Shown one piece after another: positions 4,657 to 60,738 of a DNA stretch of 64,000 bases. Position 1 is the stretch's first letter. Every line of letters begins with the position of its first letter. The stretch is from assembly GCF_000266945.1 (NCBI RefSeq), contig NC_018025.1, positions 5,274,001-5,338,000 of the forward strand. Direction: 5' to 3'. The stretch is from Desulfomonile tiedjei DSM 6799. Its GTDB lineage: Bacteria; Desulfobacterota; Desulfomonilia; Desulfomonilales; Desulfomonilaceae. The notes under the pieces were generated by a model that worked only from the letters and a program-made list of their open reading frames with translations, had not been told where the DNA came from and made no database searches. The position numbers were made by a program, and so were the translations under genes.

Positions 4657-4660
4657 ATAA

Positions 4661-4791
4661 TACCATTTCGCAATTATGCATATAAGATGGCGCAGGCTGA
4701 GGTGTTCTGAGCGGAGTGATTAGACGGCTTTGCGTCGTCCGGAGCGAAGGATACACTCCAACCTGCCGGATTATAAAAAGAAAAATCGGTA
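4661..4791 (+). repeat. family C palindromic element, copy C1
   Basis: Starts TACCATTTCGCAATTATGC four bases after the stop of the polymerase gene and ends ...AAAAATCGGTA. It contains the palindromic core GACGGCTTTGCGTCGTC. Other copies lie at 22343-22478 (same orientation) and 40261-40396 (inverted). Confidence 0.75.
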
Positions 4792-4801
4792 TAAGAATCC
4801 T

Positions 4802-4988
4802 TATAGCGGTTATCGAAAGTCTTGACGGAATCCAATGCCTGCAATGAGAAGAATCAGTAGCGCCGGCGTCCCTGCCGGCGAGAACTTATTGATTTGTTTG
4901 GTGAATTGTTCGCCGGCACGGAGGCCGGCGCTACCAATTGCTGGGAACTGCTCTTCACAATCCGTGATTACTTTCGAGAATCGGTATA
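4802..4988 (+). repeat. family A MITE-like element, copy A2 (187 bp)
   Basis: Intact reference copy: left end TATAGCGGTTATCGAAAGTC, right end ATTACTTTCGAGAATCGGTATA. It follows the family C element by ten bases. By eye it differs from copy A3 at one base. Confidence 0.88.
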
Positions 4989-5016
4989 AGCTCATCTAAA
5001 TAGGGGGATTTTCCGA

Positions 5017-14199: not shown

Positions 14200-14366
14200 T
14201 AAAAATCTGACGTTTATCCCATGCTCCAATACAAGATACTAGTGGGGACCGGCGTCCCTGCCGGTCCATTCTATCGATATCATTGATTATATTGAAGATG
14301 TGCCGGCACGGAGGCACGGCACCCACCAATATTCCTAATCTTCAATCGGACACTAATTTTGGTAAT
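14200..14366. repeat. family D palindromic element, copy D1
   Basis: Runs from ATCTGACGTTTATCCCATG to CAATCGGACACTAATTTTGG. Internal modules are GGGGACCGGCGTCCCTGCC and GTGCCGGCACGGAGGCACGG. It closely matches the copies at 41795 and 60566. Confidence 0.75.
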
Positions 14367-14560
14367 TCTTGTGGCATGAACTGCACGGTTTTACTTCTTT
14401 GACTGCTATCGGCACGAGTCTGTCTGGAGGCACTCGGAAAGACGTTCTTGAGAGAGCCAAAAAGTCGGCCTTTTCTTTATGGCAATGATCGATCTGAGGA
14501 GGAAGCCGCAAGAAATTGTGGCTTCCTCGTTTCTTTTTTAGCCCATTGATGGGGCCGATT
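14357..14560 (-). pseudogene. possible remnant of a c-type cytochrome gene
   Basis: Read on the minus strand, a frame of about 65 codons without a start codon ends ...VKEVKPCSSCHKNYQN, with a clear heme-binding CSSCH and an upstream DHCHK. The stop codon and last residues come from the end of the adjoining family D element, as if the element truncated the gene. There is no upstream start, and a terminator hairpin falls inside the frame. This may be a decayed fragment or a coincidence. Confidence 0.22.
14499..14539 (+). terminator. rho-independent terminator candidate
   Basis: A perfect stem GAGGAAGCC/GGCTTCCTC with an 11-base loop is followed by TTTCTTTTTT on the plus strand. It lies between the convergent DUF218 gene and the Trp-rich protein gene. 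Confidence 0.7.
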
Positions 14561-14604: not shown

Positions 14605-15654
14605 TTATACATCAAGTACGTTTATGAAAACCGTCTGAGAAGTCGATTGAGCTCCCCCGGAACCTGCGCACCCCAGATCGTTTACCACGATAGAGAGTGT
14701 GTCGGAACCATGGTAGTTGAGACCCGGGGAGTAAGTAACATCATGCAGCACCGCATTAAGCTCGGTCCACGATCCGAGGAACACCATCTGCGCGTCTTGC
14801 GTTCCATCACCGGTGAGAAAATAAAGTCCGGTTGTACTGGCAAGGCTCAATGTGCCGTGACTCACGGAAAGAGTTATCTGAATCTCGTCAGTAATAGAAT
14901 CGACATCATAAACGTAAATAGCGGGAATATGCAGACTGGTATTTTCATTGACAGTCTGTGCTCCCGGGACCATTACTATGGGCGCTTCATTCACATAACT
15001 GCTCGTGTGTTGCTGAGTGTAGTGGAAGTTGTTACCCCAGATGTACTCACTGGAATGCCAATCGTTGTATACCATCACCCCATAGTCATCGACGAACCAG
15101 GTGAAGGCTAATTCCCATCCGTTTTCATTGACGTCATCATGCCAGTACCACTGGCCGTCTGTATGATCCTGATAGAAGTAATTGAGTTCATCGGCATAAT
15201 AGCTGCTGCCGGTAGAATCATTGTATGCCCACATCCATTGTGAGTTAACCTGGTCCGCGAACCAGGCGAATGCCGGTTCCCAGGTCTGATCGCTAATATC
15301 GTCCCACCAGAACCAGTTACCAGTAGAAGTTTCCTGTGCCCAGTATTGATGCAACCCGTGATACCAATAGGCGAATCCTCCGGAATTCTGCACCCACCAG
15401 CCAGTGTTCTGGTTCCAGAACCATCCGCTGGATTGGTCCCACCACCATCCGCTGCCGTTATCCTCCTGCCACCATCCATTGTCGACATACACCCAGCCGA
15501 GACTATCGACCGTACCCGTGTCAGTTCCGGCGTCCTGCACATCCTGCGCGTCAGCCACCGCTCCGTCAAGAACAATCCGATCTTCCAACTGCTCCAGGGT
15601 AATTGAGCGGCCGGATCCCCCAAATGACTTCCGTAATTCAGGCATAATTCTCAT
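14605..15654 (-). CDS. Trp-rich surface protein with LEQLEDRIVLDG N-terminal motif and cadherin-like C-terminus
   Basis: About 349 residues from ATG at 15654, chosen for the GGAGG site eight bases upstream. The start of the protein holds the motif LEQLEDRIVLDGAVAD, resembling LEPR-XLL-type N-terminal motifs of very large surface proteins. Residues about 50-215 are extremely rich in Trp, Tyr, Asp and Asn in repeated blocks (GWVYVDNGWW, GSGWWWDQSSGW, STGNWFWWDDI). The C-terminal ~120 residues (APIVMVPGAQTVNENTSL, then NYHGSDTLSIVVND) look like a bacterial cadherin/VCBS-like domain that ends without an obvious anchor. The 547-residue protein at 43749 shares the same N-terminal half. Function unknown; a cell-surface location is inferred. 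Confidence 0.8.
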   Translation of the reverse strand: MRIMPELRKSFGGSGRSITLEQLEDRIVLDGAVADAQDVQDAGTDTGTVDSLGWVYVDNGWWQEDNGSGWWWDQSSGWFWNQNTGWWVQNSGGFAYWYHGLHQYWAQETSTGNWFWWDDISDQTWEPAFAWFADQVNSQWMWAYNDSTGSSYYADELNYFYQDHTDGQWYWHDDVNENGWELAFTWFVDDYGVMVYNDWHSSEYIWGNNFHYTQQHTSSYVNEAPIVMVPGAQTVNENTSLHIPAIYVYDVDSITDEIQITLSVSHGTLSLASTTGLYFLTGDGTQDAQMVFLGSWTELNAVLHDVTYSPGLNYHGSDTLSIVVNDLGCAGSGGAQSTSQTVFINVLDV

Positions 15655-15744
15655 CAATTCTTCCTCCATTTTCAGCAATTACGAAAAGAGTCTTCCGAGG
15701 AGGTATGTTCACCTCCAGCTTCCCCCAACAGTGCCTTTGTTGTA

Positions 15745-19044: not shown

Positions 19045-19231
19045 TATAGCGGTTATCGAAAGTCTTGACGGAATCCAATGCCTGCAATGAGAAGAATCAG
19101 TAGCGCCGGCGTCCCTGCCGGCGAGAACTTATTGATTTGTTTGGTGAATTGTTCGCCGACACGGAGGCCGGCGCTACCAATTGCTGGGAACTGCTCTTCA
19201 CAATCCGTGATTACTTTCGAGAATCGGTATA
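19045..19231 (+). repeat. family A MITE-like element, copy A3 (187 bp)
   Basis: Ends TATAGCGGTTATCGAAAGTC and AATCGGTATA. The interior is identical to copy A2 except for one base by eye. The left tip forms part of the target duplication of the adjacent IS701-like element. Confidence 0.85.
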
Positions 19232-22304: not shown

Positions 22305-22342
22305 TCGATCCGAAACGTTGGAAGAGCCTTCAAAGGATACTG

Positions 22343-22478
22343 ATACCATTTCGCAATTATGTATATAAGATAGCGCAGGCTGAGATGTTCTGGGCGGAGT
22401 GATTAGACGGCTTTGCGTCGTCCGGAGCGAAGGATACCTCAAGCCTGCCAGATTATAAAAAGAAAAGCGAACAGGTAT
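22343..22478 (+). repeat. family C palindromic element, copy C2
   Basis: ATACCATTTCGCAATTATG at the left and GCGAACAGGTAT at the right, 136 bp. It lies between phaC and the GAF gene and could act as a terminator-like structure. Confidence 0.75.
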
Positions 22479-22540
22479 GATTATGAATTCTGCATGGTTG
22501 CCCATTGAGTACAATTGATCCTCGGGAATTGGAGATGCTC

Positions 22541-24242: not shown

Positions 24243-24578
24243 CCTTCTGAACACCCTGCCCTTTATGAGGAACGGTAGGGCCCGGCGTCTCTGTCGAGCC
24301 GAACTGGGCGATTTGTTATGAAAAATGTGCCGGCACGGGCACGGCGCCTACCAATACCCTACCCTCAATCGGACATTATACTGATTCTCGAAAGTAATCA
24401 CGGATTGTGAAGAGCAGTTCCCAGCAATTGGTAGCGCCGGCCTCCGTGCCAGCGAACAATTCACCAAACAAATCAATAAGTTCTCGCCGGCAGGGACGCC
24501 GGCGCTACTGATTCTTCTCATTGCAGGCATTGGATTCCGTCAAGACTTTCGATAACCGCTATAACTTTGGCAATTCCC
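24236..24578. repeat. family D-like element, split by a nested family A element
   Basis: The left part, from AGTTCTGACCTTCTGAAC to CAATCGGACAT, is continued by ACTTTGGCAATT after copy A4. Together they rebuild a D-type element. It lies directly at the end of the phaJ-like gene. Confidence 0.6.
24377..24563 (-). repeat. family A MITE-like element, copy A4 (187 bp), nested in family D
   Basis: TATACTGATTCTCGAAAGTA at the left and CGATAACCGCTATA at the right, inverted relative to copies A2 and A3. It differs from A2 at only a few bases. Confidence 0.83.
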
Positions 24579-24788
24579 ATAAACCGAATAGCTTGTCTTC
24601 AAAGCAAAAAATCTTTGACTCCAAGGTCCTCGGCCTGCTATGGTCTCCCACCATGCACTGTAGTTTTCATTAGACAGACTGAGGTTACCCCCGGCAGCAG
24701 GACTCTAACGCGAACCTTGCTTCCCTCCTCGGTCTGTTACTACCTTTTTTTCTTCTCTCGAACTTCTGAACCCTCCATCCTTTTATGG

Positions 24789-24961
24789 CAATTGTCAAAA
24801 TTAGTGTCCCATTGAGGATAGGAGTATTGGTGGGTGCCGGCCTCCGTGCCGGCACATCTTCAATATAATAAATGATATCAATAGAATGAACCGGCAGGGA
24901 CGCAGGTCCCCACTGATATGTTGAATTGGAGTGTGAGATAACGTCGGAATTTTTGGCAATC
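24789..24961 (-). repeat. family D palindromic element, copy D4 (inverted)
   Basis: From CAATTGTCAAAATTAGTG to CGGAATTTTTGGCAAT, with the module GTGCCGGCCTCCGTGCCGG. It ends four bases before the stop codon of the minus-strand ankyrin gene. The gap 24579-24788 upstream of it holds nothing recognisable. Confidence 0.7.
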
Positions 24962-33593: not shown

Positions 33594-33806
33594 GATTAAT
33601 GTTTAAGGGGCTGGCCTCTTATACACTATCGAGAGATCGGCAGGCAATTGAAAAATTGATGGCTGATAAATTGCGTTTACAGCGGTTATCGAAAGTCTTG
33701 ACGGAATCCAATGCCTGCAATGGGAAGAATCAGTAGCGCCGGCGTCTCTGCCGGCGATAACTGGTGGATTTATTGGGTGAATTGGTCACCGGCACGGAGG
33801 CCGGTG

Positions 33807-35320
33807 CAATGCTGTTGAATTAAGGAAAGGGTTCTTGATTTTTCACGTTTAACCTCCGAGAATTCAGAAGGAATTGTGTTGACATGCGGGTAGTTACGCG
33901 CGATAAATTCTTTCAAAACAAGCTGCTGAAAGGATTTTATTATGGCACGCATTATGCTTTGAAGAACCATGCCAACTTAGCGCGTACGCTGAAAAATTTC
34001 TTCACATTATTCCCGGACAAATCGACCCTTCCAAGAAACGCTCGCCTCAGGACTTTACTCGAAACAGAAAACTCGCCTTTGGAAAGCTTATCACCTTCAT
34101 CTTGTCCATTGCCGCCAGTGGAAAGGGTAAAGGAGTGGACATGAAATCCGGTGAATTCTTTCGACATGCCAGAATTCTTGGCCTTTGGCCTGACGCCGAG
34201 GCGATCCATCGAAGCGCGCTCACCAAGGCGCGCAAAAAGGTGGATTGGAGGATCTTTCGGCAAATACTCGATGATGCGGTTGGTCTGGCTTATGAGTGTT
34301 GGCCTAAGAGCCCGAAGGACGAGTGGCATGGTATGTCCACTCATGCGATAGATGGCTCCGACTATACGCTTCCAGCCGCCGATGAGCTCAGGGCCGAGTT
34401 TGATCCTGAGAGCGGACTTGGGCAAGCGGGCAAAGGACATTATCCTCAGTGTCTTGTATGCACGCTCTATGACGTCTTCAGACGTCTGCCCATCGCAAGA
34501 ACTGTGGTCCCGGTGAATTCTTCGGAGCGGGACCAAGCCAAACATCTCCTGCCCCTCGTGCCTGAGGGAAGTGTCTTGCTCCTGGATCGAGGTTACCCAG
34601 GATATGAATTTCTCAGCTACCTTTTGGACAAGTTCAAAGGCTATTTCGTGATACGTTGCCCCGCAACGTCCACCTTCGCCACAGTAAAGGAATTCATTCG
34701 GAGCGGGAAGAGCGAAGCCGAAATCGTGATTCCTCCGACATCGAACTATCTCAGCCAGGTGACGGCTGAACAACGAAAGGCCGCCAAGCCCATCAGAGTG
34801 AGAGTCATCAGACTGTCCAATCCTGACGGAACCCTCTCGGTTCTCCTGACGAATCTTTACGACAAGGTGGAGTTTCCGAGACAGGAGATCACTGACCTCT
34901 ATTTCAGGCGATGGGAAATCGAGAGCTATTTCCGGGATGAAAAGATTGGGCTCGAAATCGAAAAATTTCATGGCAAAACCTGCAACAGCGTCCTGCAAGA
35001 ACTCTTTGCAGCTGCGATCATGGCTGTGATCTCAAGAACTCTCATGGCCATTTCCACCCAGTTACTCGGTGGAGAGCTCGGAGAACCTCAGTTCAAGAAT
35101 GCGGTCATGACGCTCGCGTCTGAAGCCGCCGTGCTCGCCGCAGACGATCCTGAAAGAGCCATCGAAATCTTTCAGGATATTCTCAAAGAAATCTATCGTG
35201 TCAAATACTATCGACCAAACAGTCAGCGACCACCCCAACCAAGGGTGAACAAGCAAAGCAAAAACAAATGGCTTTACCGCAGGTACAAAAATGTCCCCGC
35301 AGCTTAAGTCAACAGCATTG
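33807..35320 (+). mobile_element. IS4-family insertion sequence (1514 bp)
   Basis: The inverted repeat CAATGCTGTTGA occurs at both termini. It is flanked by the direct repeat GGAGGCCGGTG (33796-33806 and 35321-35331), an 11-bp target duplication in the range known for IS4 elements. It is inserted in a GC-rich arm of a family A repeat. Confidence 0.92.
33942..35307 (+). CDS. IS4-family transposase, frameshifted near the start
   Basis: The main frame encodes a DDE transposase with DGSDYTLP (first Asp), LLLDRGYPGYEF (second Asp) and YFRRWEIESYFRDEK, which fits the IS4 Y-(2)-R-(3)-E-(6)-K signature exactly. It carries on upstream of the first usable in-frame start (TTG 34102) to about 33907 with transposase-like sequence and no start. 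A good AAGGA site and ATG at 33942 begin MARIML in another frame and meet TGA at 33960. A +1 shift at CTT-TGA (33957-33962) joins the two. This is either a programmed shift or a one-base insertion that inactivates the gene. Confidence 0.8.
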
Positions 35321-35638
35321 GGAGGCCGGTGCTACCAATTGCTGGGATCTGTTCTTCACAATCCGTGATTACTTTCGAGAATCGGTATAGGCTACTCAAT
35401 CGCAGGAGGTTCGTGGAATTTTCGTTGCAAGCGCAATTGTTAAGCTGCATCGTGAGACAATTATTTCTTACAGCGATGCTTCATCGCCCCTTCATCCCAT
35501 AGCTGAGACTCACTGGGACCACAAAAGAAAAGCCTTGACCGAACTTACTTATTACTGCTATTGCAATATCAAACTTCCTACCGTTAGGCACTTGAGTTAA
35601 ATCTTCTAACATTGCTTATTCTTATGTGGGAGTATGGC

Positions 35639-37402
35639 ATGAGAAAAAAAACTGTTCTTGTGGCACTCTTCTGCCTCTTGGCACTCGCTCAAAATCCAGC
35701 CTACACCTGGGAATTCAGTATGAAAGGGGAAAATGTTGTCCGTTACCGTTATTGGTCCAGGGCTGGAGATGAGGACATTTTTGGTCGCATGAATTCCGGC
35801 GTCAATTTGGGTGTTAATCATCTTGTTACACATCCATCGCCGAGTCGTGATAATCCTCCTACATCATTTCGCGGTGTTTTGGCCGGTGAAAATCGTTTCG
35901 GTTCGGATATGAACTATACCGATATGCGTGTTACTTTTATTCCAAAAGTAACAGTAAACCCAGCAATTACTCTGGAAGGCTCTTTGAATTTAACCTCGCT
36001 AGGACTGCACGAAGGGGGACGTCCTATCGGTAATTGGGGGTTGCCGGGAGAAGTGAATCAGTTGTATGTGCCCATAAGTAACAGGCCTGCAGCAATCGAT
36101 GTTCCCAATACCATGGTGACAGTGCAGTGGTGGAAAATACAGCTTCAGTTCCCAATTTTCACTCTCACACTCGGCTATAGGCCCAGCGCGCTTGGAATGG
36201 GACTGTGGAAAAATCCCTGTCAGAGATCTTCCTCGTCAATCAGTATGGTTGTACCATATGGGCCGCTTACAATTGGGATCACCCCATATCTCGGAAGATC
36301 GGCAACAAATTGGAATCAGTATCCCCGTGACTCAGGCACTGCTGCAACATATCGTAAAGATGATGACCGTAATTATTTCGGAGGAGTATATGGAGATATT
36401 GTATACAGAAATGGTCCCCTGGTAGTCGATTTAAGTTCTACGGCTTACCGGGACAATTCCTCCCAACTTGTCGACATGCGTAATGCTGCAACCGGCGTTC
36501 CAGCTACGCTGACTCCTGTGATCACACCGATACCGGATCGTCTGGTTTATGAGTTGACTCTCGCAGTAAAGTATTTCAACGGGCGCTTTTTCTTCAATGT
36601 CGAGGGCGACTATTACTCGCATTACAGATCGGGACTTGGGGCAACAGAATTGCGAGGTGGTACGCGCTATCAACTTCTCGATTCCGACGTTAAAGCTTGG
36701 ATTTATGGAATCGAAACGGGAATATTGGTCGGACCGGCAAAATTATCCTTCTCATATGCGAGGGCCACAGGAGACGATCCTAACACGAGGAATGACGATG
36801 AAGATGTTGCAAGAGGTTCGACAGGCCTTAATAATTGTGCCATGAGGTACTGGGCTTTTCTGATGTACCACATGTATGGAACAGGAACAAATTGGAATGC
36901 TTCTGGCGACGGTCAGCCCACGAATGTTCATCATGTGGGAGCGAGACTTGATTATGCAGTGGCTTCGAACCTCAATGCTTTCGTCACAAACTCATGGGCG
37001 TGGCGAGATCAGCCCAATGCGTTCATACTGGGCGGCAATTATTCGCACACCCTTGCACGTTTTACCAATGACACGATGGCTCAACAACAAGGGATTCCCG
37101 GTTTTGGAGCGCCTGTGCCCGGCCTGCAAGCCGTGCCCGATCATGCGCGAGATGTGGGTTGGGAAGTGGATTTCGGCTGGAACTGGAAGGTCCTGGAGAA
37201 TCTTACGTGGAACAGTGTTCTGGCCTTTTGGCAACCAGGAACATGGTGGTCGTACGCCTACCCGAATACTGCCGAGATCTACCGTAGAAACGGAGGTACA
37301 GTCCCGCAAGCACCATTGGATCAAGTGGGAGCAACTTCCGGTGTCGGTCGCAAAATCGATCCATTGATTGGATTCGAGAGCAGTCTAATTGTCGATTTTT
37401 GA
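35639..37402 (+). CDS. outer-membrane porin-like beta-barrel protein
   Basis: About 587 residues from ATG 35639 (GGGAG seven bases upstream). There is a signal peptide (KKTVLVALFCLLALAQ, cleavage near AYTW). The mature part is made of alternating strands rich in Gly, Tyr, Trp and Asn with tight turns, ends in Phe (SSLIVDF) and has no cytosolic features, all typical of a large beta-barrel porin. A specific substrate cannot be assigned. It is followed by an operon of a secreted protein and two cytochromes, and a transport or respiratory link is possible. Confidence 0.78.
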   Translation: MRKKTVLVALFCLLALAQNPAYTWEFSMKGENVVRYRYWSRAGDEDIFGRMNSGVNLGVNHLVTHPSPSRDNPPTSFRGVLAGENRFGSDMNYTDMRVTFIPKVTVNPAITLEGSLNLTSLGLHEGGRPIGNWGLPGEVNQLYVPISNRPAAIDVPNTMVTVQWWKIQLQFPIFTLTLGYRPSALGMGLWKNPCQRSSSSISMVVPYGPLTIGITPYLGRSATNWNQYPRDSGTAATYRKDDDRNYFGGVYGDIVYRNGPLVVDLSSTAYRDNSSQLVDMRNAATGVPATLTPVITPIPDRLVYELTLAVKYFNGRFFFNVEGDYYSHYRSGLGATELRGGTRYQLLDSDVKAWIYGIETGILVGPAKLSFSYARATGDDPNTRNDDEDVARGSTGLNNCAMRYWAFLMYHMYGTGTNWNASGDGQPTNVHHVGARLDYAVASNLNAFVTNSWAWRDQPNAFILGGNYSHTLARFTNDTMAQQQGIPGFGAPVPGLQAVPDHARDVGWEVDFGWNWKVLENLTWNSVLAFWQPGTWWSYAYPNTAEIYRRNGGTVPQAPLDQVGATSGVGRKIDPLIGFESSLIVDF

Positions 37403-37762: not shown

Positions 37763-38353
37763 GTGAGAATGATCAAGCGGTCCCGTGCTTCGAACAATCC
37801 TTTGGGAAACCTGTCCTCTCATTGGGCCAAGTGTAGGGCTGTAATCTTGTTCTTATTTCTCGTGTTTTCATGGATCCCATCATCCGCTGCCCTTCCCGAA
37901 ATTCTCGGACTGCAAATGAACATGACGAGGTCTGCGGTGGAAGAAATTTTCAAAAAGAACAGCATTCCTGCTGCGGAGTTGGATCGGCAGAAGATTACTG
38001 CCGCTAGGCTGCCGGTTTCATTGGAAGGCATCCGTGAAGTGAAGCTTTCCTTTGATGGAGACAGCTTGAAGAAAATCGTCATTGTCTTTGAGATACCGCC
38101 GTATGAATCCACCGCCGACACGCTTGTCGCAAATTATCGAAGGGAAAAAGAAAGAGTGAAGAAACTATTCGGCACTCCAGCGGGGGATGTGGCCGAACTC
38201 AAGTCACCGACTCCTGAAGAACGTTACCAATGGCTTGCCCGGGGACGCGGCTATTGCCGAACGATCTGGAAGATTCCCGAAGCCACCATAACCCTGTGGC
38301 TTTACGCTGAAGATGATGGACTGGTTTTTCAAGAAATATACGAGAGTCAGTAA
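37763..38353 (+). CDS. secreted hypothetical protein
   Basis: A 196-residue protein. After a basic start (MIKRSRASNN), a hydrophobic segment ILFLFLVFSW at about residues 28-40 and the cleavage-like PSSAALP form a signal peptide. The mature part has repeated alternation of strands and helices (MTRSAVEEIFKKNSIPAAEL) with no recognised motif. The start is GTG 37763 or ATG 37769. It lies about 65 bp upstream of the octaheme cytochrome and could share its transcript. Function unknown. Confidence 0.65.
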   Translation: MRMIKRSRASNNPLGNLSSHWAKCRAVILFLFLVFSWIPSSAALPEILGLQMNMTRSAVEEIFKKNSIPAAELDRQKITAARLPVSLEGIREVKLSFDGDSLKKIVIVFEIPPYESTADTLVANYRREKERVKKLFGTPAGDVAELKSPTPEERYQWLARGRGYCRTIWKIPEATITLWLYAEDDGLVFQEIYESQ

Positions 38354-38418
38354 TCAAGCTCATGTCTTAGAGGTCAACTTTGCCCCGCAACTTCACGAGA
38401 CCAAAGAGGAGGATCGAA

Positions 38419-39624
38419 ATGGCACGCAGATGGATCTGGATTATGGCGATCTTGGCTGTATGCATTCTCGTCAGCACTGGTCTTGTTTCATGTGACAAAG
38501 GAAAGCCGCTCTCCCAAATGGGCCCGGCAAAATATGTGGGATCTGACAAGTGCGCTGAATGCCACAGCAGGATCGCTATCACCTTTCGTAACACACTACA
38601 TCAAAAGGTCATACAGGATACAAGAAAGAATCCAAGGGCCATTCAGGGCAATTTCGTACACCCCGATCCTTTAGTGGATTTCAAGCCTGATGACGTTGTC
38701 ATGACTCACGGGGTCCAGTGGAAGCAACGCTATGTAGATAAAGACTGGCGTACGCGTGTTGCTCAATGGAATTTCGAGACTGAGAAATGGTCCCCTTACA
38801 ATGCCGCTGGTTGGAAAGAAGCGGACTGGCGCAAAAAATGTGGCTATTGCCACGTGGTGGGATTTGACTATGACAAACTCACCTGGAGTGAACTGAGCGT
38901 CGGATGCGAAGCGTGTCACGGTCCTGCCAGCAACCATATTGACTCCAAGTTGGAAGACAAGATCAAGACCATAGTAAATCCTGCCACGCTGCCGTTCCGT
39001 GCAGCTTCAGACATTTGCGGCCAGTGTCATACGCGAGGCAAAAGTCCAGATAAGAAATGGGATTCTCCTGTAGGCTTCAGAGTGGGAGATTATCTGGGGC
39101 CGCAACATTTCACCGTCGCGGAAAAGTCAGATATGTCGGCCTGGTGGCCCAGCGGACATGTAAAACAGCACCGTCAACAGTACCCGGAATGGAAAGGAAG
39201 TCAACACGCCAAGGCAGGTATTGGTTGCAGCACATGTCACAGTGTTCATGAGGCAAGAACGAAGTTCGCAACAACCATGAATCCCAATAATTTGTGCCAG
39301 AGTTGCCACGGAAATGTAAGTACCGATTCCATCAGGGGACATGCTCCAATCGCAGGAGCACCTCAACATTCCGATTGTATCGGCTGCCACATGCCTCCAA
39401 CCGGAGCCAGTTCAACCCGTGGCGATGAAAGAAGCCACCAGTTTAGGACCATTCCGCCGAAAGTTACTGTGGAACTCGGAGCCGGAGATCCTGCCAAACA
39501 GCCCAATTCTTGTAATCATTGCCATTCGCACAAAAATCAGAAACCCGAACAACTTCAGAAGGCCTTGGATGACGGCAAAAAATTGTTGGAAAAGATCACG
39601 ATCACGAGTGTGACTCAACAATGA
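38419..39624 (+). CDS. octaheme c-type cytochrome lipoprotein
   Basis: About 401 residues from ATG 38419 (AGGAGG six bases upstream). A signal sequence ends with the lipobox LVSC (around residue 28), so the mature protein should be lipid-anchored. Eight CxxCH motifs bind heme c: CAECH, CGYCH, CEACH, CGQCH, CSTCH, CQSCH, CIGCH and CNHCH. The pattern recalls DmsE/MtrA-like and cytochrome c554-like multiheme proteins. It is followed after 13 bp by a NapC/NirT-like gene, so the pair probably moves electrons from the quinone pool to a periplasmic or outer-surface acceptor. Confidence 0.9.
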   Translation: MARRWIWIMAILAVCILVSTGLVSCDKGKPLSQMGPAKYVGSDKCAECHSRIAITFRNTLHQKVIQDTRKNPRAIQGNFVHPDPLVDFKPDDVVMTHGVQWKQRYVDKDWRTRVAQWNFETEKWSPYNAAGWKEADWRKKCGYCHVVGFDYDKLTWSELSVGCEACHGPASNHIDSKLEDKIKTIVNPATLPFRAASDICGQCHTRGKSPDKKWDSPVGFRVGDYLGPQHFTVAEKSDMSAWWPSGHVKQHRQQYPEWKGSQHAKAGIGCSTCHSVHEARTKFATTMNPNNLCQSCHGNVSTDSIRGHAPIAGAPQHSDCIGCHMPPTGASSTRGDERSHQFRTIPPKVTVELGAGDPAKQPNSCNHCHSHKNQKPEQLQKALDDGKKLLEKITITSVTQQ

Positions 39625-39637
39625 AAGAGGCTGTGAA

Positions 39638-40243
39638 ATGGCAATAGCGAAAACTCTCAGCATAATAATCATTGTTGGGATTCTGATCTTCATTGGGGCA
39701 GTCACTTTGGGCGGGATGGCGGTTTATTCCAAACAATCGAGCTTCTGTGCCAGTTGCAAGATCATGCAGACTCGCTATGTTGCTTGGGAGAGATCGACCC
39801 ATGCGCGTTCTGTCCACGCGAAAGCCGACTGCATAACTTGCCACTCCGAACCCGGCATTATTGGCGAATTCAAAGCACATCTAAACGGTGCCCGTTACGT
39901 TTTCGAACGCGTGACGGGCGCGCACAAGGGTGCAATTCTCGGTGCCAAAGTGTACACGAGATCCTGTCAGGAATGTCACAATGTACGCGAAATCAGAACC
40001 AAGAATGCAGGACATGAAGTGAATCATGTGGCACATTTGGGTCATAACGTGCAATGCGTCCAATGCCATCCGGACCTGGCCCACGGCACTCTTGTTGGAG
40101 ACCCGTCTATTCACCCTATGCGAACGTGTGTTGCATGCCATCGCCAGCAGCAATACCAAATGGCCAACTGCGTAGTATGTCATCCAAAGATTATGATCAC
40201 TAACCTGTTTCTTTCAGCAAAGCCTATGCGGAATCCTTTGTGA
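39638..40243 (+). CDS. NapC/NirT-like membrane-anchored multiheme cytochrome c
   Basis: A 201-residue protein with one N-terminal membrane anchor (IIIIVGILIFIGAV, residues 8-25). The first heme site is CASCK followed by IM, with Lys in place of His. Five regular motifs follow: CITCH, CQECH, CVQCH, CVACH and CVVCH. NapC/NrfH-type proteins take electrons from menaquinol and pass them to a periplasmic partner; the neighbour octaheme cytochrome is the likely partner. The CxxCK in the first site is unusual, as this family normally has CxxCH-x-M. Confidence 0.85.
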   Translation: MAIAKTLSIIIIVGILIFIGAVTLGGMAVYSKQSSFCASCKIMQTRYVAWERSTHARSVHAKADCITCHSEPGIIGEFKAHLNGARYVFERVTGAHKGAILGAKVYTRSCQECHNVREIRTKNAGHEVNHVAHLGHNVQCVQCHPDLAHGTLVGDPSIHPMRTCVACHRQQQYQMANCVVCHPKIMITNLFLSAKPMRNPL

Positions 40244-40260
40244 CGCCGGGAGGAGTTCTC

Positions 40261-40396
40261 ATACCGATTCGCTTTTGCTCTTATAATCTGGCAGGCTTGA
40301 GGTATCCTTCGCTCCGGACGACGCAAGGCCGTCCAATCACTCCGCTCAGAACACCTCAGCCTTCGCCATCTTATATGCACAATTGCGAAATGGTAT
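40261..40396 (-). repeat. family C palindromic element, copy C3 (inverted)
   Basis: ATACCGATTCGCTTTTGCTC at the left and ATTGCGAAATGGTAT at the right. It fills the gap between two convergent genes, and its last base is part of the stop codon of the minus-strand gene. Confidence 0.78.
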
Positions 40397-40977
40397 CAGT
40401 ACCATACATTCCATGCAGGAACACAGGCTGAATAATACACAACATTGTTTCCTGAAGGAGCACTTGCCGCTTGTGCCGGCTGGTTCCACGTAGAATTTTG
40501 CGTCCCCTGCTGCACTGGTTGATTCGAGGCTGCGGATCCCGCTGCGGCGGGAACTCCCCATTGAGTCCAGCATTGGGGTGCAGGGTTGTAACACACTGTA
40601 TTGGGATAGTAAAAACACATCGGTTGAGTCGCTACGGACCCAGTTTGCGGAGTCTGCATCGTTTGGCTCTGCACGGGAGGAACCGGCGGGTATCGTCCCG
40701 TATTATCGCTCCCCGCACCGGCAGATGTACCCCACGAATTGCCGTTTGCGCCGGGAAGATAACAAACCGTTCCCGGAACAGAGTACACAATCTGCGAGGT
40801 CGTCTGGGGCGCAGGCTGAGTGACAGCAACTCTCGTGCTAGGTGCAGGCTTTACCATTGAATGCCTTACTGGCGTAATATTCGTCTTTTTTCGGTTGGCT
40901 GCATGCACCGGCGAACTCCAGACAGTGGCGCTCACAATAGAGGCGACGAGGAGAAGAACTAAGTAACAGATTTTCAT
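40396..40977 (-). CDS. secreted Pro/Gln/Ser-rich hypothetical protein
   Basis: A 193-residue protein starting at ATG 40977 with AGGAG eight bases upstream. The signal peptide is KICYLVLLLVASIVSATVW with cleavage near VHAAN. The mature part is of low complexity (Pro, Gln, Thr, Ser, Asn) with scattered Cys and Tyr (GTVCYLPGANG, FYYPNTVCYNPAPQCW) and no recognised domain. It ends in Trp-Tyr. It probably lies in the periplasm or at the surface. The stop codon overlaps a family C repeat. Confidence 0.65.
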   Translation of the reverse strand: MKICYLVLLLVASIVSATVWSSPVHAANRKKTNITPVRHSMVKPAPSTRVAVTQPAPQTTSQIVYSVPGTVCYLPGANGNSWGTSAGAGSDNTGRYPPVPPVQSQTMQTPQTGSVATQPMCFYYPNTVCYNPAPQCWTQWGVPAAAGSAASNQPVQQGTQNSTWNQPAQAASAPSGNNVVYYSACVPAWNVWY

Positions 40978-41297
40978 AATTAAAACTCCTTCTGCTCATT
41001 CTGTATCAAACAACGACGCATCAGTGATTCGATCATAAAATCTGAGCATTATGTACATAAGATGCTCATGGATATATCAAGATTCCAAAGCCGTAAAGTG
41101 AGCGTATGAGCGTATTTTTTTGCACAATGTATGTTTGTCGTTCCGTATGTTGGACTTGCAGATTTCCTTCGATTGAGCAATAATTCGGGTCCTGTCAACA
41201 TTTGATTCGTCCGTAGTCTGAGTCCCTCGTTTTGTTAATGCAACCAAGTTTACTCTTTGCAAGGCTCTTGTTCCTACGGACTTCTTTGGGAGGCGCT
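40978..41297. other. intergenic region between two divergent secreted-protein genes
   Basis: This 320-bp gap separates the minus-strand secreted protein from the plus-strand one. Nothing with coding potential or repeat identity was seen; it must hold both promoters, but no clear -35/-10 pair stands out. Confidence 0.35.
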
Positions 41298-41720
41298 ATG
41301 TTACGTCTTTATCTGCAAAAAGTTCTGCCAGTCTATTGTATGGTGATTTTGCTGAATATGAGCGTTTCGGCTGAAGCTCGAGCTCCAATATATTGGGAAG
41401 TCATGCTCTGGCCGACTCCTCAGGAAATTACCGTCAAAGTAGTTCCACGAACTCGGGTCAGAGAAGTAACATTCCAAGTGGAATTTTTCGATGAATCAGG
41501 TAAGTCAATTGCTGTGCAGACATTGCCGTTCACGGATTCGGAGCAGGCCGAATTGGATTCAGGGAAGCAGTATTCGAAAAAGTTCTCTCATTCGGTGAGC
41601 AATGCGAAGGAAGTGAAAGGAAAACTTATGTTTGGAAAAGCCGCCCTGAGTTCTCCGAAAGCAGCAGCCGATTCTGCAGTGAACGAACTTGATAAAGGAA
41701 TACCACCCTTATCTGAATAG
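41298..41720 (+). CDS. secreted hypothetical protein
   Basis: About 140 residues from ATG 41298, with GGGAGG five bases upstream; the frame is open a further 22 codons but without a ribosome site. The signal peptide ends near VSAEARA. The mature part shows a beta-sandwich-like pattern (EITVKVVPRTRVREVTFQVE) and a Lys/Ser-rich C-terminus. No family recognised. Confidence 0.65.
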   Translation: MLRLYLQKVLPVYCMVILLNMSVSAEARAPIYWEVMLWPTPQEITVKVVPRTRVREVTFQVEFFDESGKSIAVQTLPFTDSEQAELDSGKQYSKKFSHSVSNAKEVKGKLMFGKAALSSPKAAADSAVNELDKGIPPLSE

Positions 41721-41794: not shown

Positions 41795-41965
41795 TGCCAA
41801 AAATTCTGTCGTTTATCCCTCGTGTGAATTACAGGATATTGGTAGGGACCGGCGTCCCTGCCGGTCCATTCTATCGATATCATTGATCATATTGAAGATG
41901 TGCCGGCACGGAGGCACGGCACCCACCAATATTCCTAATCTTCAATCGGTCACTAATTTTGGTAA
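41795..41965. repeat. family D palindromic element, copy D2
   Basis: From TGCCAAAAATTCTGTCGTTT to CACTAATTTTGGTAA, with the modules GGGACCGGCGTCCCTGCC and GTGCCGGCACGGAGGC. It lies between a terminator and the 3' end of the amt gene. Confidence 0.78.
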
Positions 41966-43208: not shown

Positions 43209-43748
43209 ATCGCTGTACCTCTCTCACCTGACATAAAATTGAACACGATTTCTACGAGCAAGAGATGTACCAGCAGAACCAGCCCCTGATGCGGCTTCGA
43301 TCAATCCCCACAATATTGAAGAATTGCACAAGATATAAGAACAGTCGAAGCTTCAGAAATGTATGTATTAAATGTAAAACGTACATACTTGTACTAGTCT
43401 TCCTTTATCTGAGTGACTCTTTACAAAAGGACCTTTATGCCTCAGCCATAAGGTGTAAGCACTGAAATGAGATAGCAGATTATAGTTTCTATTACTGAAA
43501 TATGAGTATTATGCAAAGAAGCCAACCATAGAATTTGGTTGACAAGTAAAAGCTGCTTTGGCAGGGTTTATTGTTGGGGATATTTATTTCTCTAGAGCTT
43601 TGTATTGGTTACTGAGGGGGACTCCGTCAGAATCCAAAGAAGGTAACTGGTGCCGACGATATCAAGGCTCAAGCACCTATAGTGCTCGCTTGGGGGATGG
43701 TGCGTTCTCTTTTCGCCTTGCCGAAATTGCATTTGAATGGAGGTTTAT
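43209..43748. other. AT-rich intergenic region between amt and the Trp-rich gene
   Basis: A 540-bp gap between divergent genes. A TTGACA occurs at 43539-43544 but has no good -10 partner. No gene, repeat element or RNA gene was recognised. Confidence 0.35.
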
Positions 43749-45392
43749 ATGTTTCAGGGACAATTCATGCTCGAACAGTTGGAAGAACGGATTGTCTTGG
43801 ACGGAGCAGTCGCAGACGTGCAGGATGTTCAAGACCAAACATCGGATGCGAATTCCGTAGATAGCCTCGGTTGGGTCTATGTTAATGACGGGTGGTGGTA
43901 CGAGGACACGGGTTCGGGCTGGTGGTTCAACGAGAATTCCGGTTGGTGGTGGAATGAGAATGATGGATGGTGGCTCAAATCAGAAAACGGGTTCGATTTC
44001 TGGTACCGCGGCGAGCACCAGTACTGGGCCAATGAGATTTCCACGGGGTTGTGGTTCTGGTGGGATGACATAGACGAACAGTACTGGGAACCTGCATTTA
44101 AGTGGTTCGCCGATCAAATCAATTCGGAGTGGACATGGGTCTATAACGACTGGAACGGAACTTTTTATCAAACGAATATTGAACATTATTATTATGAGGA
44201 CCATGCGACGGGTGATCGCTGGCAGTGGAATAGTCTAAGTTCCATCTGGAAACCTATACCGAGCCTCGTGGCTGACATCAACGCGGGTGATTATAATTCT
44301 TTTCCTGAGTACATGACCGTCTATAATGGTCAACTCTATTTTGCAGCCGATGGCGATTCTCATGGAGAGGAGTTGTGGAGATACGATTCAGCGACAAATA
44401 CGGTAAGCCTTGTGGCTGACCTCTACGCGGGATACATTGACTCCGATCCGCATGAGTTGACCGTGTACAATGGTGAACTCTATTTTGCTGCTGACAGGGG
44501 GCTTTACGAGACAGAGTTATGGAAATACAACTCAGTTTCAAATACTCTGACCTTCGTGGCTGATATTCACCCTAACTATGGGTCTAATCCACAGTTCTTA
44601 ACTGTGTACAATGGCGCACTCTATTTCGCTGCTACTGATGGCGTCCACGGGAACGAATTATGGAAATATGATTCAACTTCAAATACGGCAAGCCTGGTGG
44701 CTGACATACGGCCTAATTCGGACTCTGACCCCGCGCATCTTACTGTTTACAACGGCCAACTGTATTTCATTGCTAATGATGGCACTCACGGAGATTCTCT
44801 GTGGAGATATGATTCCGCATCGAATGTCACGACTCTCGTGACCGATCATCTCTGGAGGGGCGGTGGCCTGATCGTCTACCACAATCAACTTTATTTTTCC
44901 GCTTATGATGCAGGACCATACTGGAAATACGATCTCTGGCGATACGATTCAGTATCAGGATCAGTTCTTGCTGCTGGTCGCAACCCGTCCTTTCTATTTC
45001 CCTGTAATCTGACTGTGTGTAATGACCAACTCTATTTTCAAGCGACAGGCGCTCTAGGGGACGAGCTATGGAAATATGATTGGGTAACTCAGTCAGCAAG
45101 CCTGGTAGCTGACATTTATCCTGGAGACGGCCACTCAAACCCAGGTAGTTCGGATTATTGGCAAGGCATGGTGGAATATAGGGGGCAGTTGTATTTTCCC
45201 GCTGATGACGGGGCTCATGGAATCGAATTGTGGAAATACGATCCTCAATCAAATACAGCTACTCTTGTATACGACTTGCGCGAAGGCATGTACGGCTCGT
45301 ATCTCTTGCACCTCGTCGTATATGATGACGAACTTTATTTTTGTGCTTACGACGACATTCACGGCCGGGAGTTATGGAAATACCACGCCTAG
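43749..45392 (+). CDS. Trp-rich surface protein with LEQLEERIVLDG motif and eight ELW-type repeats
   Basis: About 547 residues from ATG 43749 (GGAGG six bases upstream). The start carries LEQLEERIVLDGAVAD, nearly identical to the protein at 14605, and the next 130 residues are the same Trp-rich domain (GSGWWFNENSGWWWNEND). Then follow eight repeats of about 45 residues with the core TVYNGQLYFAA...GNELWKYDS, which could form an eight-bladed beta-propeller-like fold. No membrane segment or anchor is visible. Likely a cell-surface or secreted protein; function unknown. Confidence 0.82.
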   Translation: MFQGQFMLEQLEERIVLDGAVADVQDVQDQTSDANSVDSLGWVYVNDGWWYEDTGSGWWFNENSGWWWNENDGWWLKSENGFDFWYRGEHQYWANEISTGLWFWWDDIDEQYWEPAFKWFADQINSEWTWVYNDWNGTFYQTNIEHYYYEDHATGDRWQWNSLSSIWKPIPSLVADINAGDYNSFPEYMTVYNGQLYFAADGDSHGEELWRYDSATNTVSLVADLYAGYIDSDPHELTVYNGELYFAADRGLYETELWKYNSVSNTLTFVADIHPNYGSNPQFLTVYNGALYFAATDGVHGNELWKYDSTSNTASLVADIRPNSDSDPAHLTVYNGQLYFIANDGTHGDSLWRYDSASNVTTLVTDHLWRGGGLIVYHNQLYFSAYDAGPYWKYDLWRYDSVSGSVLAAGRNPSFLFPCNLTVCNDQLYFQATGALGDELWKYDWVTQSASLVADIYPGDGHSNPGSSDYWQGMVEYRGQLYFPADDGAHGIELWKYDPQSNTATLVYDLREGMYGSYLLHLVVYDDELYFCAYDDIHGRELWKYHA

Positions 45393-46571: not shown

Positions 46572-46752
46572 TATAGTGTTTCTCAAAAGCTTTGAAGCAA
46601 TCCGATACCAGCACTGAAGAGTATCAGTAGCGCCCGGCGTCGCTGCCGGGCAAAACTAGTTGATTTGTTTGCATATTGTCCACCGGCACGGAGGCCGGTG
46701 GCTACCAAATTCGAGGAATCGCTCTTCGCGATTACTTTTGAGAATCAGTATA
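46572..46752 (-). repeat. family A MITE-like element, divergent copy A6 (181 bp)
   Basis: Begins TATAGTGTTTCTCAAAAGC and ends GAGAATCAGTATA. It contains AGCGCCCGGCGTCGCTGCC and ACCGGCACGGAGGCCGGTGG. It has clearly more changes than the 187-bp copies. Confidence 0.7.
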
Positions 46753-46794
46753 AGCGCCAACTTTGTCCAATTCTTTGTCCCAAAGGGACTAAAG

Positions 46795-60565: not shown

Positions 60566-60738
60566 ATTACCAAAAATTCTGACGTTTATCCCATGCTCCA
60601 ATACAAGATACTAGTGGGGACCGGCGTCCCTGCCGGTTCATTCTATCGATATCATTGATCATATTGAAGATGTGCCGGCACGGAGGCACGGCACCCACCA
60701 ATATTCCTATTTTCAATCGGACACTAATTTTGGCAATT
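60566..60738. repeat. family D palindromic element, copy D3
   Basis: From ATTACCAAAAATTCTGACG to CACTAATTTTGGCAATTG, with GTGGGGACCGGCGTCCCTGC and GTGCCGGCACGGAGGCACGG. It is highly similar to copy D1. Confidence 0.8.

Follow-up and report, generated by a model that had tools for sequence, protein, structure and literature searches.

A CXXCK heme-attachment motif at the presumed quinol heme of a NapC/NrfH-like cytochrome of Desulfomonile tiedjei

The window analyzed here is a stretch of 64,000 nucleotides from the genome of Desulfomonile tiedjei DSM 6799 (two contigs, 6,500,104 bases in the larger and 6,527,027 in total). On its forward strand, at 39638–40243, lies an open reading frame of 201 residues encoding a NapC/NrfH-like, membrane-anchored hexaheme cytochrome that carries CXXCK at heme 1. 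An earlier note, made from the sequence alone, had called the product NapC/NirT-like with a first heme motif reading CASCK followed by IM, and the Pfam NapC/NirT profile (PF03264) agrees, at 44.7 bits against a cut-off of 24.1; this is the one PF03264 match in the genome. The C-terminal part also passes the Pfam cytochrome c7 cut-off (25.5 versus 24.8). The NCBIfam models for NrfH, TorC and napC_nirT all match below their cut-offs, the latter two weakly and the NrfH model (TIGR03153) at 52.5 bits against 134.2. By sequence, the best solved relative is NrfH of Desulfovibrio vulgaris (2j7a, E 1.2e-6).

The protein has a single N-terminal transmembrane anchor and, after it, six CXXC(H/K) motifs, where a member of the family should have four or more. 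The anchor, at about residues 4–30 (39647–39727), is a hydrophobic stretch that AlphaFold2 predicts as a helix over residues 2–32, with pLDDT of about 80 over residues 1–20 only. The heme-1 site, CASCKIM, occupies residues 37–43 (39746–39766), with Lys41 encoded by AAG at 39758–39760 and Met43 at 39764–39766. The other five sites are standard CxxCH motifs, as the note had stated: CITCH (heme 2, residues 65–69, 39830–39844), CQECH (heme 3, residues 110–114, 39965–39979), CVQCH (heme 4, residues 140–144, 40055–40069), CVACH (heme 5, residues 164–168, 40127–40141) and CVVCH (heme 6, residues 178–182, 40169–40183). At a mean pLDDT of 46.7, the AlphaFold2 model of the whole protein gives no usable positions for Lys41, Met43 or His81.

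Thirteen bases upstream, on the same strand, lies the gene of a partner, an octaheme c-type cytochrome (38380–39624; ATG 38419 is the more likely start), which has eight CXXCH motifs and passes the cut-offs of PF13435 and PF14522. A cysteine encoded at 38491–38493, invariant in 10 aligned members, ends its hydrophobic N-terminus, and the partner is thus probably a lipoprotein; its AlphaFold2 model (pLDDT 34.7) was too poor for use. A scan of the genome collection gave 12 related loci, with L066 and L067, which are other multiheme proteins, left out. In all 12 loci, the window included (seven with CXXCK and five with CXXCH at heme 1), the octaheme gene precedes the NapC-like gene; in one of them (L060) it is cut by the contig start, and seven motifs are visible. 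The heme-6 motif is found in all seven CXXCK proteins and in none of the five CXXCH members of this gene-pair subfamily. Farther upstream, 37763–38353 (forward strand) encodes a small predicted exported protein, for which searches of Pfam and NCBIfam at E 0.1 gave no match; a homologue lies upstream in four of 11 related loci, all CXXCK. A 596-residue exported, barrel-like frame still farther upstream, at 35612–37402, was a candidate component of a porin-cytochrome conduit. We rejected it, as blastp at E 1e-4 found no match to it in the 11 related loci, which differ in length; it has no Pfam or NCBIfam match over cut-off. Rfam gave nothing at gathering scores across 38000–41500.

The window also holds several repeats. 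A copy of a repeat of ~143 bases (40259–40401) begins 16 bases past the stop of the CXXCK gene, with further copies at 22338–22480 and 4660–4784 (88–94% identical). Another, of ~165 bases (84–96% identical), occurs at 14201–14367, 41800–41965, 60573–60738 and 24788–24961, and again 2.2 Mb away, near the CcsA locus discussed below (L069, 14237–14413). A dispersed element of ~188 bases occurs in both orientations at 1133–1320, 4802–4989, 19045–19231 and 24376–24564 (98–99% identical), each of these four copies lying between frames of at least 150 residues, with partial copies at 33677–33807, 35321–35393 and 46572–46755; it looks like a mobile or REP-like repeat family. Finally, 14605–15678 (reverse strand) and 43737–45392 (forward strand) encode proteins of 357 and 551 residues with a common N-terminal region. 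It starts with LEQLE(E/D)RIVLDGA, includes a stretch rich in Trp and is 68% identical as DNA across 375 bases; the Pfam matches of the proteins are only marginal.

To place the lysine within its family, we compared sequences from a protein search of the phylum (395 genomes, matches in 146), a profile search of the window's family (18 genomes, matches in five) and the genome-collection scan. The alignment has 185 rows and 184 distinct sequences: the window protein, 183 loci of the family and the NrfH stretch. The loci are part of the matches listed that cover heme 1 in the protein search of the phylum and in one further search, together with those of the scan; the further search contributed 20 of its 45 matches without a locus, and locus L030, filtered out at first, was restored. 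L030 is one of a group (L008–L025, L027, L028, L030 and L031) with frames of about 710–790 residues in the fetched stretch and 16 CXXC(H/K) motifs, which begin with a NapC-like heme-1 region, mostly CxxCHNM, and represent a giant relative present in many genomes of the phylum.

The CXXCH that marks heme 1 in the NapC/NirT family is replaced by CASCK in the window protein. Position 41 is His in 178 of the 185 rows and Lys in seven, all of one clade, and row counts for Lys41, as for His81 below, are not numbers of independent evolutionary events. Because the survey was restricted to two phyla and to sequences found by their similarity to the window protein, CXXCK NapC-like proteins may exist elsewhere. 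With duplicates merged, CXXCK(I/V)M occurs in seven distinct proteins (the window's, L003/L056, L004, L057, L060, L005/L058 and L006/L059), L060 having the variant CKVM, and Lys is present in each of the five matching genomes among the 18 searched in the window's family. Five of the seven genomes are titled as metagenome-assembled. A sequencing or assembly error at this one codon, which would make the lysine an artifact, found no support: seven genomes have the Lys in common, and codon 41 is AAG in five of the genes and AAA in two, so that the residue has been kept through synonymous change. We regard that explanation as refuted. The alignment of close homologues that the earlier note proposed has thus returned the same Lys in seven distinct genomes, and of the two things that the note thought would undo its proposal, homologues with CXXCH do exist, but a sign of sequence error does not.

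A tree in which columns 41 and 81 were masked unites the CXXCK proteins in a single clade (support 95/98). Column 41 needs one change on this tree, and column 81 needs three over 33 rows, one of them in an unrelated Gln row. The free tree groups the Nitrospirota pair (L061, L062) weakly with the CXXCH set L063, L064 and L007 (76/79), but placing the pair with the Lys clade instead survives the AU test (p-AU 0.346). The octaheme partners, which in Nitrospirota are 55% identical to the window's and in the other CXXCH pairs 36–37%, lean towards Nitrospirota as nearest kin of the Lys clade. On these trees Lys41 has a single origin, and His81 probably has one or two.

A lysine at heme 1 had suggested to the earlier note an unusual heme near the membrane or a lost heme. 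Across the seven genes, residues 33–56 (the heme-1 stretch) have a pN/pS of 0.049 and 90% pairwise identity, versus 0.254 and 66% over the full length, and the stretch has the lowest pN/pS of six regions compared. With synonymous sites close to saturated, the ratio serves as a relative measure only. Cys37, Cys40, Lys41 and Met43 are invariant in all seven proteins. Since the heme-1 stretch is the best-conserved part and keeps both cysteines and Met43, loss of heme 1 seems unlikely, and the unusual heme is the better reading of the two.

Retention of a heme leaves the question of how it would be attached. Attachment through CXXCK is, according to one review, very rare and accompanied by dedicated synthases (PMC10663686, in part); another likewise holds that it needs a dedicated synthase (PMC7096707, in part). 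Among system II organisms, NrfI of Wolinella is the only confirmed case according to the sections of a 2025 review that we drew on (PMC12285233). A system I precedent points the other way: in Shewanella, CXXCK appears to be handled by the general CcmF, with no dedicated lyase (PMC6976685, in part).

A search of the window's genome for an NrfE/CcmF-like dedicated lyase, as the earlier note had recommended, came back without one. Two PF01578 proteins are encoded, in frames of 281 and 289 residues, and no further one of CcmF size was found. One adjoins ResB and forms a system II synthase pair. The other gene (L068, 4543–5409) lies between a siroheme-type gene and hemA/hemC, in a tetrapyrrole cluster, with no ResB beside it; we take it to be probably hemX. 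Its product nevertheless passes the NCBIfam cut-off for a system II synthase subunit (218.5 versus 187.6 bits), and it could, in principle, be a cryptic CXXCK-specific synthase that attaches heme 1. We consider this quite improbable, because the tetrapyrrole neighborhood and the missing ResB fit HemX, and because G102 and G330, family members in which the Lys protein is missing, likewise carry two PF01578 genes and one ResB each. ResB is single in eight of nine genomes tested (two hit pieces, one frame); it was not found in the ninth, G143, a carrier of the Lys protein whose genome is 82% complete. In G058, another carrier, PF01578 hits four times; two of these hits fall in frames (664 and 265 residues) resembling system I, so this genome may encode several synthases. 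Neither ResB, in the nine genomes, nor PF01578, in a set without carriers G404 and G395, revealed a lyase gene confined to carriers. A candidate CcsA signature of carriers came down to one column (238, Ala versus Thr/Gly; four carriers versus three others) and was not convincing.

If the general synthase skipped CXXCK, heme 1 would not be covalently attached, and the product would be a five-heme protein or one holding its quinol-site heme non-covalently. The single ResB/CcsA pair, the dedicated synthases that CXXCK has elsewhere and engineered CXXCK sites that were left unhemylated even by NrfI (PMC12285233, in the sections drawn on) all speak for this. Yet a Cys pair and Met43 invariant in seven of seven proteins, within the most conserved stretch, are hard to reconcile with it, and the Shewanella CcmF, an ordinary one, appears to handle both motifs; we judge it unlikely.

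What binds the heme-1 iron can be approached through NrfH. There, the menaquinol-side heme is described as pentacoordinated, with the Met of CXXCHxM as ligand and an Asp on the distal side (PMC8840924, in part). CASCKIM of the window aligns with CTSCHIM of NrfH, and because the NrfH ligand is the Met rather than the motif His, and the Met is kept, Met43 is favored here and, by this analogy, most likely binds the iron. Two points temper the analogy. First, the Met43 column has Met in 107 of the 185 rows and Ile in 71 (CHEI, CHTI, CHNI), and because Ile is unable to ligate iron, Met cannot be the heme-1 ligand in every member of the family; rows of the Ile type include L079, L080, L082, L145 and similar ones. 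Second, the 2025 review describes the NrfH hemes as six-coordinate and those of CymA as low-spin (PMC12285233, in part), unlike the five-coordinate Met heme above.

Alternatively, Lys41 could itself be the proximal ligand, as in NrfA, where the CXXCK heme is Lys-ligated (PMC8840924, in part), and a five-coordinate heme would then oxidize quinol or reduce a small substrate near the membrane. That the Lys is invariant in seven of seven proteins with both AAG and AAA codons suggests that it is selected, not merely tolerated. But the NrfH precedent and the invariant Met43 supply another ligand, the CXXCK protein has no PF02335 match, and the extra NrfE/NrfI-type synthase that accompanies NrfA-type CXXCK cytochromes was not found in the window's genome; on this evidence, Lys ligation is possible, though doubtful. 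Nor was an NrfA found there, with which an NrfH would be encoded: two PF02335 hits, of 21.4 and 21.2 bits, are below threshold. The PF02335 cut-off is passed in only one of the six other carriers, G386 (26.4 bits, 62 model positions, a frame of 811 residues), by a match that does not resemble NrfA; both Nitrospirota genomes have NrfA-like proteins (430 and 357 bits). The analogy that the earlier note drew to the Lys-ligated heme of NrfA and its dedicated lyase is therefore not supported by sequence, given the Met ligand of NrfH and given that neither an NrfA in the window's genome nor, in the genomes searched, a carrier-specific lyase was found.

A second departure lies at the presumed quinol site. 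We take CymA Lys91 to fall in the alignment column of NrfH Lys82. Lys91 is essential for quinone interaction, according to the title of a paper cited in PMC12285233, and NrfH Lys82 and Asp89 are residues checked as conserved in an archaeal NrfH (PMC4683180, in part). The window protein has His81 (39878–39880) in place of this quinol-site Lys and Tyr87 (39896–39898) in the column of Asp89, on the distal side of heme 1. Column 81 is Lys in 166 of the 185 rows, His in nine and another residue or a gap in 10, with poor alignment in some weak rows (e.g. L084, L193, L224); it is gap-free in the gene-pair subfamily, and against many of the other members the alignment has a gap of one residue that falls between columns 81 and 87. 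The nine His rows comprise all seven CXXCK proteins plus L061 and L062 of Nitrospirota, whereas L063–L065 keep Lys, so that Lys41 occurs with His81 in seven of seven CXXCK rows and His41 with His81 in two of 178 CXXCH rows. Tyr at the Asp89 column (12 of 185 rows) is found in all 12 subfamily members, CXXCK and CXXCH alike, and it therefore does not go with Lys41.

This pattern could reflect a functional Lys/His exchange around the quinol-oxidizing heme. The quinol-site Lys would first have become His81, as also in the two Nitrospirota proteins that keep CXXCH, and the heme-motif His would then have become Lys41; Lys41 would have taken on a quinol-binding or proton role and His81 a ligand or proton-accepting role, with one general system II synthase hemylating CXXCK. 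In that case, this CXXCK would break the rule of a dedicated synthase. However, position 79 is Lys in five of the seven CXXCK proteins and in both Nitrospirota proteins (the remaining two CXXCK proteins have Gln and Arg), and a shifted Lys could thus serve the quinol in most of them. We regard the exchange as tentative and rather unlikely.

With moderate confidence, we favor instead a working menaquinol dehydrogenase of the NapC/NrfH kind, with a covalently bound heme 1, Met43 as its ligand, Lys41 tuning the quinol pocket and maturation by the general CcsBA. A transmembrane helix would be followed by six c-type hemes on the periplasmic face; menaquinol electrons would enter at heme 1 and pass to the octaheme lipoprotein encoded upstream. 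Heme 1 would be attached through both cysteines of CXXCK, probably by the general CcsB(ResB)/CcsA synthase. Ligation by Met43, as in NrfH, would leave the motif His free to change, and Lys41 would tune the pocket rather than create an NrfA-like catalytic heme. Besides the two points on Met ligation raised above, two considerations weigh against this explanation. The reviews require a dedicated synthase for CXXCK, and none was found. Further, His81 and Tyr87 replace quinol-site residues of NrfH, and the NrfH mechanism may for that reason not carry over.

The protein thus belongs to a known family and probably does an ordinary job, passing electrons from quinol to a periplasmic cytochrome, and the clade-wide, selected change of the heme-attachment motif at the presumed quinol heme is real. 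In the parts of the literature on CXXCK heme attachment that we covered, the described cases are nitrite reductases, and we found no description of CXXCK in a NapC/NrfH-type protein. Here, the motif sits in another family, at the presumed quinol-oxidizing heme, and the organism uses system II and shows a single synthase pair. It offers a natural test of what CcsBA truly requires in its substrate and, given Met ligation in NrfH, of whether the heme-1 motif His of NapC/NrfH proteins is needed. The loci also define a two-gene electron-transfer module, a hexaheme or pentaheme quinol dehydrogenase with an octaheme cytochrome, in genomes titled Desulfomonile, Desulfarculaceae, Desulfobacteraceae and Nitrospirota, among others.

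Several known systems provide comparisons. NrfA and the window protein have the CXXCK attachment motif in common, but NrfA belongs to another protein family, and the window protein has a Met two residues after the Lys. The quinol dehydrogenases CymA, TorC and NapC are of the same family and presumed role, and their heme-1 motif is CXXCH; for CymA, this is given in PMC12285233 (in part). NrfH of D. vulgaris (2j7a, 2vr0) is likewise of the NapC/NirT family with an N-terminal anchor; query residues 19–134 align to it, and the heme-1 sites are in register (FC-x-x-C-H/K-I-M). The window protein differs in having Lys for the heme-1 motif His, His at the Lys82 column and Tyr for Asp89, and in having six heme motifs and an octaheme partner, where NrfH has four motifs and NrfA. 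Finally, the five more distantly related CXXCH gene pairs (L061 and L062 of Nitrospirota, L063, L064 and L065/L007) have the gene order of the window, an octaheme partner 36–55% identical to its own and the same Tyr at the Asp89 column, but they keep CXXCH at heme 1 and have five heme motifs.
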